Assembly (NCBI GenBank): GCA_000242935.3
Contig: CP007053.1
Coordinates: forward strand, 4,387,001-4,451,000
DNA from: Opitutaceae bacterium TAV5
Lineage (GTDB): Bacteria > Verrucomicrobiota > Verrucomicrobiia > Opitutales > Opitutaceae
Direction of reading: 5' to 3'
DNA length: 64,000 bases
Within the stretch, counting starts at the first letter, position 1. Each line of letters opens with the position of its first letter. The notes beneath the pieces are model-generated. The model ran no database searches and had not been told where the DNA came from. It was given only the letters and a program-made list of their open reading frames with translations. A program made the position numbers and the translations under genes. This document shows positions 6,217 through 55,823 of the stretch, one piece after another.

Positions 6217-6590
6217 GTGGCGCGGGCGTCTCGCCCGCTGGCGGCGAAGCCGCCGGGTCGGCGTGGCACGGCCATCCTGGCCGTGGACGGCGCGCAGCGC
6301 CGCCCGTTTGTTTCCGGACGTTGCGGAGAGGCAACGCTCACGGGCTGGAAGCCCGTGCCACGCCGGAATCGTTCTCGTACTCTTTCTCGTTTTCTTTCTC
6401 CGGTCCGGGTTCGTTCTCCTTCTCTTTCTCCGGATCGATCGTTCTCCTGCTCCGGCACTCGCACGACGCACGCACGCACGACGCGCCGCAGCACAAGAAA
6501 GAGTAAGAGAAAGAGAAGGAGTACGAGAAAGAGTACGATCCGGAGAACGAGTAAGAGAACGAGTGGGAGCGGGCGAGACGCCCGCGCCAC
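6217..6590. repeat. REP cluster bracketing a polypyrimidine/polypurine hairpin
   Basis: Two 23-bp REP units (6217-6239 and 6568-6590) are exact reverse complements of each other, each a GCGGGCG/CGCCCGC-type hairpin. Between them lie a REP at 6263-6285 (CACGGCC-ATCCT-GGCCGTG) and one at 6339-6361 (CACGGGC-TGGAA-GCCCGTG). The latter is preceded by GCGGAGAGGCAACGCT, a linker also found beside the RAYT near 54 kb. At about 6365-6440 the strand is almost all pyrimidine (CTCGTACTCTTTCTCG...). At about 6495-6566 it is almost all purine (AAGAAAGAGTAAGAGAAAGA...), so the two sides can pair as a long imperfect hairpin. Confidence 0.8.
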
Positions 6591-37414: not shown

Positions 37415-40400
37415 CTAGTTGCCCCAGATTTCGACTTCATCGAGTGTTCCGCCGGCGAGGGGCCACTCGACGGCGAGGCGAACGTGACGGGCGGAAACGG
37501 CAGCAGGGAGCGTCAGCGTGTATTCGCGGACGGCCGCATTGCCGACGGACAGGGGTTGAGTGAATTGCGGCGTGAAGGATTCGCCATCGGTGCTGGTGGA
37601 GAGGAGGAGTCGCACGGGGAGCAGGTCGCCGGGGCCGGCGTTGATAACGACACGGCGGACGGAGCGGATGCCTTTCAGGTCAAAGTCCACGGCGATGTCT
37701 TTTGTCGCATAGGAGGCGTTGTAAGGGCCGGGGCCGCCGGCGCTGCGCTGGCCCGTCCTGTTGTTGAAGCCGTTGGTGAGAGCGGCGCCGGAAGGGAGCT
37801 TTTTGTCGCTGCGGGCAGGGTCGGAAACGGCGGCGGAGGCAGGCGAGTCAGCAGCAGGTGTCGTGTAGCGGTAGGTGGCTCCGGTGTGGGTGCGGTAGGG
37901 ATACGTGTCGGGGTAGTGGGCGTTGTCGGTCAGGATGTGGAGCGCTTTTTCCGCGGGGATGTCCATGACGACGTTGGTGGTGAGGATGGCGGCGGGGCGG
38001 GGATTGGACACGGGCAAGATGCCCGTGCCACTTTCACGGGCTGGAAGCCCGTGCCACGTTGCGACGAGCGGATAGAGCCAGTCGGGTTTGACCAGCGCGA
38101 CATCGGCCGGAGGCGTGACGGTGAAAGTCGCCTGGTGGCTCTTGCCGGGAGCGAGCTCGGGAGTGTCCGCCGTGGCGGCGGGAGAGATTTGCCAGCCGGC
38201 GAGCGCCTGGGCGCGGAGGACGCCGGCCGGGAGAGGAGCGGCCGTTGTGTTGATGAGTTCCACCGTTAGCGGGAAGGGCGCGCCGGGGGTGAGCCGGGCA
38301 GTATGGCCGTCAACGGCGCGGGTTGCGGATGCGACAGGGGAAATGGAGAGGACCGGGGAGTACTGGCGAAACAGATACAGAACGCCGGCGCTCGGTATGA
38401 CTGGCAGGGTGACTTCATAACGGTCGCCGGTGACGGGCCGGACAGGGAGGGCGGTCAAGCTGTCATCCTCGGCGGGAGCCCACCAGGCGGTGGTCCAGGG
38501 GCCGCCGGGCAGCGGGAGCGTGACGGTGCCGGCGGGGAGCGGGCGTGGTTCGGTATCGGCGCGGGTGGCGATGACGATGGCGACGTTGCCGGACTTGTCG
38601 GTGAAGGGTTGTTCGACGCGGAGATTGCCGGTGTCGGCGAGCGCCTTGTCGGCGGCGATGGCGGGGGAAAGGCCGGCCTCGCGGAGGCGGTCGCCGAGCC
38701 AGCGGCCGATGGCGAGTTCGCCCTGCTGGCGGGCGTATTCCTCGCGGTCGGCGGTGGGGCCGTCGAGGAGGAAGGCGCTCATGGCCTCGGCCGGTTTTTC
38801 CAGGATGGTGGAGCCGAGTTCGAAGGGGAAATACAAGACCCTGCCGGGTTTTGCGTTCAGGGTTTGGGGCTTGGCGTCTGGAGTTTGGGGCAGCGTGTTG
38901 AGGAAGGCGACAGGACGACGGTCTTTTCCCGCCGATCCGGTGGCGAGCGGACGGGCGGTGGTGGCGCTGGCGGTGACAGAGGTGTCGGCGATGAGGGTTT
39001 GCCGGGCGTGACCGGAGTTGATGATGAGCCGGGTAAGCGGAGGGGCAACGGGAGCGGGCGGGACGCCCGCTCCACTTTTTCCGCCAAACGTGACGCCGAG
39101 GAGGGGGGCGAGTTGGTCGCGGATGCGGTGGTGCGGGTCGTAATAGCCGGGGCGCGTATCGGCAATCAGGGTACCGCCGTCTTCGCGGACGTAGCGGGTG
39201 ATGGCGGCGGCTTCATCCGGGGCGAGATGCTCGGCGCCGATGAGGGCGAGGGCGTCGTAGGCGCGAAGGTAGCCGGCATCGAGTTTGGTGGAGGGGATGA
39301 CGTCCACCCAGTAGCCCTGTTCGCGGAGCCAGCGGTAAACGAGCCAGCGGTGGTTGCGGGGATAACCCCAGCGGGAAGTGGAGCGGGGCGACTTGTCGGA
39401 GAGAAGCACGTCGCGGCGCGGCAGGAGCATGGCGATGCGAGGCAGGCCGTCGGCGGGCACGGCATTCTTCCAGAAGGTTTCTGTTCGATGGACCATGTGA
39501 GCCCAGCGGGCGGCGTAGTGGAGTTTGTCACGGGGAGCGCCGGTGGCGGAGTTGTGGAAGCCGAACTTGTCCCAGTCGTCTTTGGCGCCGGCGAAGCCGA
39601 GGGTGAAAAAATCGGCGGCCTTGAGACCGTTGGCGAGCATGCGCCAGGTGGTCGAGGCAAAGGCATGGCCGGGGCCGTTGTGATTGTTGGTTTCAGGCAA
39701 AAACACGCCGTAGCCGGGGGAGCGGTCGAGGGGGCGGATGGCGTTGTAAAGATAGTTCAGCTCGTAGGCCTGGCGGTCGCCGCTGCCGTACATGTCGGCG
39801 CCGAGGAGGCCGCCGCTGATCGGGCGCATGAGTTCGGCGAAATGTTCCTGATCGAAGGTGCGCGCGCGGTTGGTGACCGGCATCTCGATCGTCTGTTGCG
39901 TGGACTTGTGGACGACGCCGCGTTTTTCCGGGTCCGCATCGTGCATGGCGCGGGCGAGTTCGGCGAGGGTGGCGGTGAAGTGTTCGCTCTGGAAAGTGAT
40001 CCAGTCGAGCCAGGCACCGGGGCGGGTGGCGTAGTCGGCGGGGGAGGGAATGTCGGGACTGTTGGCAGCGGCTTCAAAGGTGGGGTGACGGGAGAGAGCG
40101 GAACCGGAGGGGAGGTCGGTGGACCAGGCTTCGTTGAGGGCGGCGATGTTGTTGTTGTAGGCGGCGCGGAGCCAGGCGGCGAACGCGGCGCGGGCTTGGG
40201 GGGAGTAGTCGTGGTTGCCTTCCCATTCGTTATCGAGGCCCCAGTAGTCGATGAGGGGACCGGTGGCGCGGTCGGGTGTAGGGGCGGACCAGGCGTTGAC
40301 ATGGGCGCGAACGTAGTCGTTGAGGAGTTCGCGGGTGGCGGGGTCGAAGAGGTTGATGCGGGCGCGGCGGATGAGGGGTTTGCCAGCGGAGGGATGGGGT

Positions 40401-52989: not shown

Positions 52990-53218
52990 CGGAAATTAAC
53001 CACAGAGGCACGAAGACACGGAGGTACTCACCAAGGGGAAACGTCTAAAGGGAGGTTTTAAAAATTAACCGCGAAGGACGCGAAGGATGCGAAGACCAGA
53101 AAAATTGAGACATTGGCACTTGGCGCTCTTCGCGTCCTTCGCGGTAAAAAAGGAATTTCAGGAGTTCCCTTGGCGTCCGGGCTTCGTGCCTCTGTGTCTC
53201 TGTGGTTAATTCCGTTTC
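52990..53218. repeat. Nested palindromes between metG and the isochorismate synthase gene
   Basis: Outer arms: AATTAACCACAGAGGCACGA then AG, against CTTCGTGCCTCTGTGTCTCT then GTGGTTAATT. Inner arms: ACCGCGAAGGACGCGAAG against CTTCGCGTCCTTCGCGGT, exact over 18 bp. Between the two pairs, CCAAGGGGAA faces TTCCCTTGG. So one palindrome family is inserted inside another. The right outer arm ends 14 nt before the next ATG. Confidence 0.85.
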
Positions 53219-53231
53219 GGAGATTCGCAAA

Positions 53232-55550
53232 ATGACCATCCTCCCGATCCATCCCGCCGAGAATGCCACGCCGGAGGCGCTGGGAGCGTTTCTCGCGCAA
53301 TGCCGGGAGATGGCGGCGCGCGATGGCCGGGCGAAGCTGGTGAGCATTTCGCTGGCGGTGGATGCGCTCGATCCGCTGGCGGTGCTGGAGTCGATTTTCG
53401 AGCCGGACGAACCGCATTTTTATACGGAGCGTCCGGGGATGGAGAGCGCGATCGCCGGAGCGGAGATCGCGGTCGCGTACACGGCGCACGGGCCGGAACG
53501 CTTCGCGCAGGTGCAGCGCTTTATCGACGACACACTGGCGCACACAATCGCGGTGGGCGATGTGGAAGCGCCCTTCGGCGGACCGCATTTTTTCACGACG
53601 TTCACGTTTCACGACGAGGTGGAGGCGGGCGAGCCGTTTGCCGCCGCGCATGTCTTCGTGCCACGCTGGCAGGTGGCGCGGGCCGGCGGGGTGACGACCG
53701 CCGTGGCCAACCTGCTGGTCGCGCCCGATGCCGATCTCGCCGCGCTCACGGAACGCGTCTGGCGGGCACACGGGAAGTTTGCGAATTTCGAATACCGGGT
53801 GGAGAGGCAAGGCGCGTGGCACGGGCTTCCAGCCCGTGTTCAGGAAAGTGGCACGGGCATCCTGCCCGTGAGCGTTGCCTCTCCGCGTGGCACGGGCTTC
53901 CAGCCCGTGTCTTCCGAGGTCGATACCCGTCAGGGAGCCTATCTGCCACACTGGACGAGAGACGGCGGATTCTACGCCGTAACCTTCCGTCTTGGCGACG
54001 CACTTCCGGTCCATGTCGTGGCGGCATGGCAAGAGGAACGGAACGACATCGTGGCCCGTGCCCGACAGCAAGGACGGGAGCTTTCCGACTCCGAACAGGA
54101 ACGACTGGCCCATCTTTATTCGGAACGAATCGAAGCATTTCTCGATTCGGGCGCGGGCGAATGCCATTTACGAAATCCCCGGATTGCAGACTTGGTCCGG
54201 GAGACACTGCTGCATTTTGCGGGCAAGCGTTATGAACTTCATGCGTGGAGCATCATGCCCAATCATGTGCATGTGGTGTTACGAGTGCATGAGGGTTATC
54301 ATCTGAACGACATCCTGCATTCATGGAAATCCTTTACATCAAACAGGGCGAATCGGCTTCTCGGACGAAAGGGTGAGTTTTGGCAACCCGAGTATTACGA
54401 TCACCTGATTCGTGACGAAGCAGACTATCAGCATGCAGTACGGTACGCGCTGGAGAATCCGGAGAAGGGGGGACTTCGTGAATGGCCTTGGGTTGGTGGC
54501 ATGACGTGGCACGGGCATCCTGCCCGTGGACGGGAAAGTGGCACGGGCATCCTGCCCGTGAGCGTTGCCTCTCCGCATCCCGCTCCTGGACGGCGCTCTG
54601 CGCCGCCGGAACTTCATGGGCAAGATGCCCATGCCACGCCGGAATCACGGGCTGGAAGCCCGTGCCACTTTCCGGACACGGGCTGGAAGCCCGTGCCACC
54701 TTCCGGACACGGGCTGGAAGCCCGTGCCACGCTCCGCATTTCCGATGTCGGCGATTACCGCGCGGCGGTGGCGCGCGGGCTGGAGCGGATCGCCGCTGGC
54801 GAGTTCCAGAAGATCGTGCTCGCCCGCGCGCGCGATGTCGTGGCAGCGGAGCCTCTCCATCCGCTGCGCGTGCTCAATGCGCTGCGGCAGCGGTTTCCGG
54901 ACTGTTATGCGTTTTCGGCGGCCAACGGGCGCGGACAGAGTTTTATCGGCGCCTCGCCCGAACGGCTGGTGCGCGTGAGCCAGGGCGTGCTCGAAACCGA
55001 GGCGCTCGCCGGCTCGGCGCCGCGCGGCGCCGGCGCAAGCGAGGATGCCGCCGCCGGAGGCGCCTTGCTGCGCAGCGAGAAAGACCGGCGCGAGCAACGG
55101 CTCGTGCTCGACTCCATCCTGCGCCGTCTCGCTCCGCTCGGCCTGCGTGCCGAATATCCGGATACGCCCGGCCTGCGTCGCCTGGCGAACGTCCAGCATC
55201 TGCACACGCCCGTGCGCGCCGTGTTGCCGGATGGCGTGCGGCTGCTCGACGCGCTGGCGCGGCTGCATCCGACCCCCGCGGTGGGCGGCTCGCCGCGCGA
55301 GGCGGCGGTGGCGCGTATCCGCGAGCTGGAAGGTTTCCCGCGCGGCCTCTACGCCGGCGCGCTCGGCTGGATCAACGCGCGCGGCGGCGGCGAGTTTTTT
55401 GTGGGGTTGCGTTCAGCGCTGGTGGACGGGGCGACCGCCCGCATCTACGCGGGCGCGGGCATTGTTGCAGGGTCGGAGCCGGAGCGCGAATACGCGGAGA
55501 CGGAGCTCAAGTTCCGTGCCGTGCAGGACGCCTTGACGGGATCGTCCTGA
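53232..55550 (+). CDS. menF: Isochorismate synthase with in-frame RAYT/REP insertion
   Basis: This frame encodes 773 residues. Residues 1-195 or so are the N-terminal part of isochorismate synthase. Residues about 500-773 are its chorismate-binding domain: YRAAVARGLERIAAGEFQKI, SFIGASPERLV, ALAGSAPRG, LHPTPAVGGSPREAAV, FPRGLYAGALGW and IYAGAGIVAGSEPEREYAET. The enzyme converts chorismate to isochorismate for menaquinone or siderophores. Between the halves about 920 nt (53811-54735) encode a REP-associated tyrosine transposase and nine REP hairpins, with no stop or shift. The joined enzyme alone would be about 465 residues, the normal size. Whether the large product folds is open; it could be a pseudogene with an intact frame. 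Confidence 0.88.
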   Translation: MTILPIHPAENATPEALGAFLAQCREMAARDGRAKLVSISLAVDALDPLAVLESIFEPDEPHFYTERPGMESAIAGAEIAVAYTAHGPERFAQVQRFIDDTLAHTIAVGDVEAPFGGPHFFTTFTFHDEVEAGEPFAAAHVFVPRWQVARAGGVTTAVANLLVAPDADLAALTERVWRAHGKFANFEYRVERQGAWHGLPARVQESGTGILPVSVASPRGTGFQPVSSEVDTRQGAYLPHWTRDGGFYAVTFRLGDALPVHVVAAWQEERNDIVARARQQGRELSDSEQERLAHLYSERIEAFLDSGAGECHLRNPRIADLVRETLLHFAGKRYELHAWSIMPNHVHVVLRVHEGYHLNDILHSWKSFTSNRANRLLGRKGEFWQPEYYDHLIRDEADYQHAVRYALENPEKGGLREWPWVGGMTWHGHPARGRESGTGILPVSVASPHPAPGRRSAPPELHGQDAHATPESRAGSPCHFPDTGWKPVPPSGHGLEARATLRISDVGDYRAAVARGLERIAAGEFQKIVLARARDVVAAEPLHPLRVLNALRQRFPDCYAFSAANGRGQSFIGASPERLVRVSQGVLETEALAGSAPRGAGASEDAAAGGALLRSEKDRREQRLVLDSILRRLAPLGLRAEYPDTPGLRRLANVQHLHTPVRAVLPDGVRLLDALARLHPTPAVGGSPREAAVARIRELEGFPRGLYAGALGWINARGGGEFFVGLRSALVDGATARIYAGAGIVAGSEPEREYAETELKFRAVQDALTGSS
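53811..54735 (+). mobile_element. REP-RAYT element (REPtron-like) inside menF
   Basis: The insertion consists of three REPs (53816-53838, 53848-53870, 53887-53909), the RAYT gene, two REPs in the same orientation (54506-54528, 54538-54560), then four in the opposite one (54615-54637, 54646-54668, 54677-54699, 54708-54730). Each is 23 nt, CACGGGC or CATGGGC, N5, complement, plus a GTGG/CCAC side. A near-identical direct repeat of 71 nt (two REPs plus AGCGTTGCCTCTCCGC) begins at 53816 and at 54506, flanking the transposase. Flanking target duplications are not evident. Confidence 0.88.
53907..54500 (+). CDS. REP-associated tyrosine transposase (RAYT), Y1/HUH type
   Basis: The RAYT part is about 198 residues: GAYLPHWTRDGGFYAVTFRL, LRNPRIADLVRETLLHFAGK, WSIMPNHVHVVLRVHEGYH with the HUH-type pair His-Val-His at 54264-54272, then NRLLGRKGEFWQPEYYDHLI and YALENPEKGGL. 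Conserved tyrosines follow (YY at 54393-54398 and the one in VRYALENP), one of which should be catalytic. It has no ATG; GTG at 53907, the last codon of a REP, is the best independent start. There is no stop after WPWVGG, so translation runs on into the REPs and the menF 3' half. These proteins nick and move REP DNA. Confidence 0.8.
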
Positions 55551-55823
55551 CCGGGCCGGAGACCAGAGGCCAGAGGGTCGGATTTCAGATTTTGAATCGC
55601 AGATTTCAGACCTTTGGGAGGTCTAAAAAATCATTTTCCCAATCTGACAAATCAACCGCGAATGGACGCGAATAAAAACACAATAAAATCATATCTAAAT
55701 GATTATGCATTCCATCATTTTTTCTGGATTCGCGTTCATTCGCGTCCATTCGCGGTTAAAAATGTATTTTTAGAACCTCCCCTCCGGCTTCCGGTCTCTG
55801 GCCTCTGACAAACGGCAACGGGC
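55551..55823. repeat. Nested palindromes between convergent menF and GntR-GH78 genes
   Basis: There are three layers. Outer: GAGACCAGAGGCCAGAG near 55558 against CCGGTCTCTGGCCTCTG near 55790. Middle: GGGAGGTCTAAAAAATCATT against AAAAATGTATTTTTAGAACC then TCCC. Inner: AACCGCGAATGGACGCGAAT (55654-55673) against its exact 20-bp complement at 55738-55757. The centre is AT-rich. It may stop transcription from both sides. Confidence 0.85.

Follow-up and report, generated by a model that had tools for sequence, protein, structure and literature searches.

A REP-associated transposase in frame within the isochorismate synthase gene of Opitutaceae bacterium TAV5, a probable parasite of coding sequence

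We analyzed a 64,000-nucleotide stretch of the Opitutaceae bacterium TAV5 genome (hereafter the window) and found that menF, the isochorismate synthase gene, carries a REP-associated tyrosine transposase (RAYT) together with its flanking repetitive extragenic palindromes (REPs) in frame between its two halves. The fused open reading frame (ORF) lies on the + strand at 53232-55550 and runs from an ATG at 53232 through to 55550 without an internal stop, encoding in order the N-terminal half of MenF, three REPs, the RAYT, six REPs, and the C-terminal half of MenF. The original prediction for this locus had counted 773 residues; the single stop-free frame stands, but the length is 772 residues plus the stop. 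We consider it probable that this REPtron (the RAYT plus its flanking REPs) is an in-frame parasite of the menF coding sequence, which would be produced as part of one 772-residue protein, tolerated at a linker, left unspliced, and held open by selection on the host.

The N-terminal half comprises 189 codons beginning with the ATG (53232..53798) and is preceded by a candidate ribosome-binding site, GGAG, at 53219-53222; all features are on the + strand unless stated otherwise. In profile searches this half gave a partial match to positions 8-167 of PRK07054 (E 1.2e-13, 51 bits), while the chorismate-binding C-terminal half (54747..55550, including the stop codon) matched TIGR00543 with 314.2 bits, above the cut-off of 224.75. 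The C-terminal half also matches the solved MenF structures 2EUA and 3GSE (E 4.5e-41 and 6.7e-39). Isochorismate synthase models match both halves in order, with the match to the RAYT model NF047646 lying in between, and the predicted position of a RAYT in frame between the MenF halves is thus borne out by the open frame and by the profile matches. An isochorismate synthase is expected to be an uninterrupted chain, and that of TAV5 is interrupted: its linker measures 948 nt, compared with 45-72 nt in 114 of 143 one-frame menF genes (TAV5 among them), so about 0.9 kb has been inserted. Other palindromic repeats, of the CCGCGAAGGACGCGAAG type and the CACAGAGGCACGAAG type, flank menF at 53001-53196 and 55649-55760 of the window.

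The core of the RAYT (53928..54494, 189 amino acids) is that of a Y1/HUH transposase. It scores 34.6 bits against PF01797, above the cut-off of 23, and 78.4 bits against NF047646 (E 4.7e-22; 77.6 bits in the genome search), narrowly below the 80-bit cut-off, and TnpAREP (4ER8) was its sole match in a sequence search of the PDB. Aligned to TnpAREP, the HUH motif reads His-Val-His (54264..54272), and a putative catalytic tyrosine (54444..54446) falls on Y115, which we take to be the catalytic residue of TnpAREP. The two histidines and the tyrosine, H113, H115, and Y173 of the RAYT, are invariant in all six MenF RAYTs described below. A RAYT would in addition be expected to cleave REPs as single strands.

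Nine REP hairpins frame the core, as had been predicted, with three in the + orientation to its left and two + and four - to its right. Eight of them have the form CACGGGC-N5-GCCCGTG and carry a GTGG tag each, and the ninth is a CATGGGC variant seen by eye. The left linker (53799..53927), which is in frame, holds three GTGG-tagged REPs at 53816..53838 (GTGG plus CACGGGCTTCCAGCCCGTG), 53848..53870, and 53887..53909, the last ending in a GTG at 53907. The right linker (54495..54746), likewise in frame, holds two + REPs at 54506..54528 and 54538..54560, followed on the - strand by the variant (CATGGGC...GCCCATG, 54615..54637) and three further REPs at 54646..54668, 54677..54699, and 54708..54730. 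Because the tag is GTGG instead of GTAG, it contributes no TAG stop. A 72-nt direct repeat containing a REP also flanks the RAYT, its left copy at 53815..53886 and its right copy, 93% identical, at 54505..54576; the copies are 690 nt apart, a multiple of three, and recombination between them would therefore be expected to delete the RAYT in frame.

There are 159 copies of the 21-nt REP pattern dispersed through the TAV5 genome (155 tagged GTGG and one GTAG), compared with none for a reversed-pattern control, and these copies, together with the RAYTs that occupy the MenF linker in five other genomes, counter the idea that the arrangement arose by chance. No REPs of the menF type were found near six other RAYT-like loci of TAV5, in the 3.2-3.4 kb around each. 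Given the many dispersed REPs and their absence from these loci, the menF fusion appears to be the only candidate that we saw for the transposase of the GTGG REPs. Within the window, more GTGG-tagged REPs occur singly at 6335-6361 and as a pair at 38005-38057.

Apart from the interrupted gene, the TAV5 genome encodes two PF00425 proteins, three in all, which we assigned by eye to a PabB-like protein and TrpE (33-35% identity to the MenF C-half). menD is present, over its cut-off, and PF02621, presumably the MqnA/D family, had no match in the TAV5 genome in a search that was positive in 4 of 14 control genomes. The interrupted gene is therefore the only candidate found for the menaquinone isochorismate synthase, and the search for a second menF that the original prediction had called for turned up none. 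The PabB-like gene (L221:1-1476, genome C1:2400-3875) has a REP sequence in frame shortly past the motif FTTPF, and directly behind trpE there is a RAYT-like gene of another type, 189 amino acids long, with no menF-type REP nearby (L222:1738-2307, genome C1:4838637-4839206).

Some chorismate-binding match, TrpE and PabB included, was present in 53 of 57 near genomes, and a MenF-type match (E <= 1e-60) in 226 of the 252 genomes of the family. Loci from 150 of these 226 were fetched; the other 76, G079, G083, G085, and G167 among them, lie outside the comparison. Both MenF halves are on a single contig in 145 of the 150 loci, the N-half being missing from the contig in G028, G071, G074, G111, and G251. 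The linker length is divisible by three in all 145 single-contig genes, and in 143 of them the stretch from N- to C-half is one stop-free frame. The remaining two, G202 and G231, have linkers of 60 and 75 nt; their frames break within the N-half, through error or decay, and the genomes are 64 and 77% complete. Besides the common short linkers, the 143 one-frame genes have 24 of 81-270 nt and five of more than 300 nt.

A RAYT lies in frame in the MenF linker of five of these 143 genes, those of TAV5 (G000), G024, G126, G128, and G234. G111 provides a sixth case, in which the N-half and the RAYT stop at a contig end within REPs and the C-half is found on a separate contig. The six genomes represent six genera, and REP peptides and linker lengths vary between them. 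In the MenF tree, which was built without G111, G202, and G231, all five RAYT-carrying tips have RAYT-free nearest relatives, and the close relatives G242, G070, and G125 lack the RAYT; the other fetched genomes of the genus of G111 also have a menF without one. The empty site that a comparison with relatives was meant to reveal is thus present beside all five tips. Among the 138 RAYT-free linkers, 8 hold an intact REP-type palindrome, compared with a mean of 0.26 and a maximum of 2 in 200 shuffles, and G001, congeneric with TAV5 and outside this count, has related palindromes in its linker. The suggestion of an insertion tolerated at a linker is supported by linkers that are always a multiple of three, by the sole menF, by the six genera, and by the empty site in relatives.

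These comparisons bear on two simpler explanations. The first, raised in the original prediction, is a recent knock-out in which menF is a decaying pseudogene whose frame is open by accident. The GC content at third codon positions (GC3) is 54.5 in the TAV5 RAYT versus 81.0 and 83.5 in menF, so the RAYT may have reached TAV5 fairly recently. However, the interrupted gene, which stands alone beside menD, has no stops and has kept the catalytic residues of its RAYT, its MenF halves are 82% identical to those of G024, and the architecture recurs in five other genera; this recurrence, combined with the empty sites in relatives, takes away the case for a knock-out, which we regard as very unlikely. 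The second explanation, an assembly or sequencing artefact, is scarcely credible. It is true that REPs seem to break assemblies, as both G111 pieces end in the linker and four more loci lose the N-half near a contig end, but the TAV5 genome was published as complete, with a chromosome of 7,317,842 bp and a plasmid of 99,831 bp (PMC4358385), and the same architecture, with different sequences, appears in assemblies of other organisms.

It is plain from the sequence that the RAYT relies on its host for termination: in the six MenF RAYTs, the conserved Trp-rich end runs in frame into the REPs, whereas stand-alone relatives are closed by a stop. For initiation, too, the RAYT probably relies on the host. 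The six have a start codon at no common position and none at -11 to -13, unlike the family's seven nearest stand-alone RAYTs, all of which start at codon -11 or -12. Outside the family, the start positions of stand-alone RAYTs vary, and in L225, which is 65% identical and among the closest RAYTs overall, an ATG stands at -7, like the GTG of TAV5. The proposal that the RAYT uses host translation therefore holds firmly for termination and less firmly for the rest, and the evidence for a GTG start supplied by a REP is mixed, with the lack of a common start on one side and the ATG of L225 on the other. A related alternative is that the RAYT is translated separately, or also separately, from an internal start such as the GTG at 53907, while the continuous frame serves MenF alone; this would count against the reading that we favor. 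The GTG lies seven codons upstream of the RAYT core, the stand-alone L225 has its ATG at the equivalent position, and ATG, GTG, or TTG codons occur at assorted short distances in other hosts. Given the missing common start, and a frame that passes from the conserved end into the REPs with no stop of the RAYT's own, we consider separate translation unlikely.

MenF is not the only host. Using the six MenF RAYTs as the query, a scan of one genome per species returned 280 relatives, of which the best 80, from seven named phyla, were kept. At 39 of these 80 loci, the RAYT is in the same ORF as a recognizable host protein, and 19 of them have host Pfam matches both before and after the RAYT; 52 long ORFs were flagged, 40 of which were scanned with Pfam. 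The most frequent host is an Eco57I/MmeI methylase, which we refer to as PglX-type on the assumption that it is BREX-like (n=7: L249, L251, L259, L274, L288, L292, and L302; L292 was outside the Pfam scan and was assigned by sequence only). PglX-type hosts occur in several phyla, and some have long runs of REP peptides. The other hosts are valyl-tRNA synthetase (ValRS, six), MenF (four, with L226 assigned by BLAST of the N-half), Sua5 and leucyl-tRNA synthetase (LeuRS; three each), FabZ-like proteins (Pfam FabA), CarB, and MetH (two each), TatD (two, the RAYT being a C-terminal add-on), and eight proteins that occur once. At three of the 41 loci without an assigned host (L279, L298, and L300), the RAYT terminates a long open frame, and these may be further cases.

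By eye, the insertion point is identical in all six ValRS, all three Sua5, and two of the three LeuRS. The RAYT-carrying ValRS is the sole one over the family cut-off in five of six genomes, the sixth gene being cut by a contig, and the RAYT-carrying LeuRS is the sole one over the cut-off in both genomes searched. Where an essential enzyme has no second full copy, it must function either with the insert or after its removal. Related RAYTs may well live in ValRS, LeuRS, Sua5, and other proteins in the same way as in MenF. In the genome of L254 (G281:C57), the first 75 LeuRS residues are in a different frame from the rest of the RAYT-carrying LeuRS.

Within the family, RAYTs are in frame with creatininase-like parts (G125 and G003), an adenosine-deaminase-like protein (G036), a DUF1638 protein (G075), an HsdR-like protein at a contig end (G127), and an Eco57I-type protein in G264; in G007, the frame closes after the RAYT. 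In two Opitutaceae genomes of one genus (L108 and L109), the protein that contains a RAYT in frame has two stretches resembling creatininase. We also considered whether the GTGG tag is a requirement for life in frame; this was ruled out by the G264 restriction-modification gene, in which a GTAG-type REP after the RAYT sits in a frame that avoids TAG.

Removal of the insert by protein splicing, RNA removal, or ribosome bypassing, in the manner of an intein or intron, would fit the essential hosts that carry it without a second full copy, as well as the hairpins on its flanks. We found no intein or Hint family in the TAV5 frame (Pfam, E <= 1), however, and none was listed in the 50 other ORFs scanned (Pfam, E <= 0.001), while removal of the RNA or bypassing would not need an open frame, yet the frame is open. 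Removal is therefore highly improbable. The word "intein-like" used in the original prediction remains apt for the lifestyle of the element, but neither for its content nor for its site, which is a variable linker.

Another possibility is that the fusion itself is selected, with the RAYT domain benefiting the host, for example by placing or regulating MenF. Intact catalytic residues and the use of the same linker in six genera would agree with such domestication, and published work portrays RAYTs as domesticated transposases that are present in single copy and inherited vertically (PMC8049555). On the other hand, only five of the 143 one-frame menF genes have the RAYT, G111 with its split gene being the one further case, and the close relatives named above lack it; similar RAYTs occupy unrelated hosts, and neither the REP peptides nor the linker lengths are constant from genome to genome. 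We consider a domesticated fusion quite unlikely.

The history of the fused RAYTs was examined in a wide tree of 49 rows (the first 47 of the 80 scan loci plus two); another tree was built without the stop-containing cores L272, L284, and L299. RAYTs cluster by host gene, with 13 label changes over 32 rows compared with a mean of 23.35 and a minimum of 20 in 200 shuffles, and both the ValRS (97/90) and the Sua5 (100/100) RAYTs form clades. The PglX-type group spans Lentisphaerota, Planctomycetota, and Pseudomonadota and has stand-alone RAYTs within it; transfer of whole defence genes could explain this group. The six MenF RAYTs form one clade in narrower trees, at 96/91 with 38 rows and 87/85 with 34 rows (five earlier rows dropped), and the groupings expected under descent with menF gave p values of 0.195 and 0.293, so none was rejected. 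At identical residues, synonymous differences are more frequent in the RAYT than in menF in all 15 pairs, with Fisher p <0.05 in 10 (the pairs are non-independent); for TAV5 and G024, they amount to 0.65 in the RAYT versus 0.42 in menF (p 3e-5). NG86 dS is undefined for 12 of the 15 RAYT pairs. The GC3 of the RAYT is below that of menF in all six genomes, which raises the ceiling of synonymous differences, and the excess is therefore only suggestive as a sign against simple co-descent with menF. For the MenF RAYTs, the evidence leans toward repeated arrival rather than a single origin.

Our preferred reading, an in-frame parasite of menF, implies the following course of events. REPs spread by the RAYT would occasionally land at flexible linkers first and be tolerated if their tag is stop-free and their length divisible by three. 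The RAYT would enter such a REP-bearing linker later, by single-strand transposition or REP-REP recombination, and become a translated domain with no need of its own start, stop, or promoter. In the TAV5 protein, the MenF halves would fold with the insert between them, at a linker of variable length in the family, and flexible REP-encoded linkers would lie on both sides of the RAYT. A nonsense mutation or frameshift in the RAYT would break the host enzyme, and host selection would thereby keep the RAYT frame open. The RAYT could then persist even if it conferred no benefit, and only missense decay or an in-frame deletion would eliminate it, with recombination between the flanking direct REP repeats as a possible way out. 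As a broader and more tentative proposal, which we regard as possible though short of an even chance, such RAYTs may make up lineages of protein parasites, homing-like but non-splicing, that occur in seven or more phyla and each keep to one host gene (ValRS, Sua5, the PglX-type methylase, FabZ-like, CarB, or MenF). These hosts are often essential; the RAYT would be translated as a domain of the enzyme and kept open by host selection, and its transmission would depend not on descent alone but on renewed insertion, time and again, into one REP-seeded linker.

Several observations weigh against this picture. Translation as one chain, the activities of the fused MenF and of the transposase, the route of arrival and loss, and the protection of the frame are all deduced from sequence. 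The AlphaFold2 model of the fused chain has a mean pLDDT of 52, with RAYT blocks at 61-92 and the MenF C-half mostly at <50 (only four usable alignment rows included the C-half), and this poor model leaves the folding of the C-half unsupported; in a Foldseek search with it, 4ER8 came top, followed by isochorismate and anthranilate synthases. Linkers with REPs alone need not reflect a REP-first stage, as they could be scars left when RAYTs were lost. Most comparison genomes consist of many contigs, and G272 has an additional C-terminal ValRS piece, below the cut-off, on a separate contig. The scan was queried with fused RAYTs, which may favor fused relatives, and taxonomy confounds the clustering by host gene, as the ValRS cases are all from Planctomycetota and the Sua5 cases all from Verrucomicrobiota. 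Lastly, the MenF RAYTs split 3+1+1+1 in the wider tree of 49 rows, although a single clade was not rejected there by the approximately unbiased (AU) test (p 0.262).

If the reading is nevertheless true, RAYTs without an ORF of their own that live as a domain in essential enzymes would represent a different mode of persistence for a genetic parasite. As the host needs the enzyme, the reading frame of the parasite would be protected along with it, and this offers a testable answer to the question of how such transposases avoid decay. The hosts also point to sites in ValRS, LeuRS, CarB, Sua5, and MenF that tolerate large inserts. In a survey of 2018, family members of unexpected length, few in number, were set aside as gene fusions or errors of annotation (PMC6006769), and fused RAYTs may have been overlooked because long members were discarded in this way. 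In keeping with the original prediction, we found no description of a RAYT inside a host protein in the open-access literature, judged mostly from titles and the openings of abstracts. REPs in ORFs are known, and it is the RAYT in an ORF that seems new.

Among known systems, inteins and homing endonucleases resemble these RAYTs as parasites with an open frame in host genes, with one site per host (as in ValRS and Sua5) and a patchy distribution. The TAV5 insert differs in that no splicing domain was found in it, in its HUH enzyme, and in its location in a variable linker of MenF, whereas inteins are reported to reside in conserved parts of proteins (PMC2814812). Rickettsia palindromic elements (RPEs), an earlier case of intragenic palindromes, and the intragenic REPs of Opitutus terrae and R. 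conorii are in-frame palindromes within genes, as in TAV5 (PMC3733652; PMC10969869), and REPs inside ORFs have been reported with GTAG ones most numerous in Opitutus terrae (Di Nocera et al. 2013, PMC3733652). These texts deal with REPs or short palindromes in ORFs, and sections 15 and 16 of PMC3733652 do not mention RAYTs in host ORFs; TAV5 adds a transposase gene inside. Like known MenF (2EUA, 3GSE), TAV5 MenF has profile matches for both halves in order, and it differs by the roughly 0.9 kb inserted where the N-terminal part passes into the chorismate-binding domain. The REPtrons of TnpAREP (4ER8) share the HUH and tyrosine domain, REPs in inverted orientation, and cognate REPs in high copy number; flanking REPs in inverted orientation are given as a feature of RAYTs (PMC2817692), and TAV5 has them, + on the left and - on the right. 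In PMC2817692 and PMC3733652, however, RAYTs are described as ORFs of their own, whereas the TAV5 transposase lies within the ORF of its host and is read through without a stop of its own.

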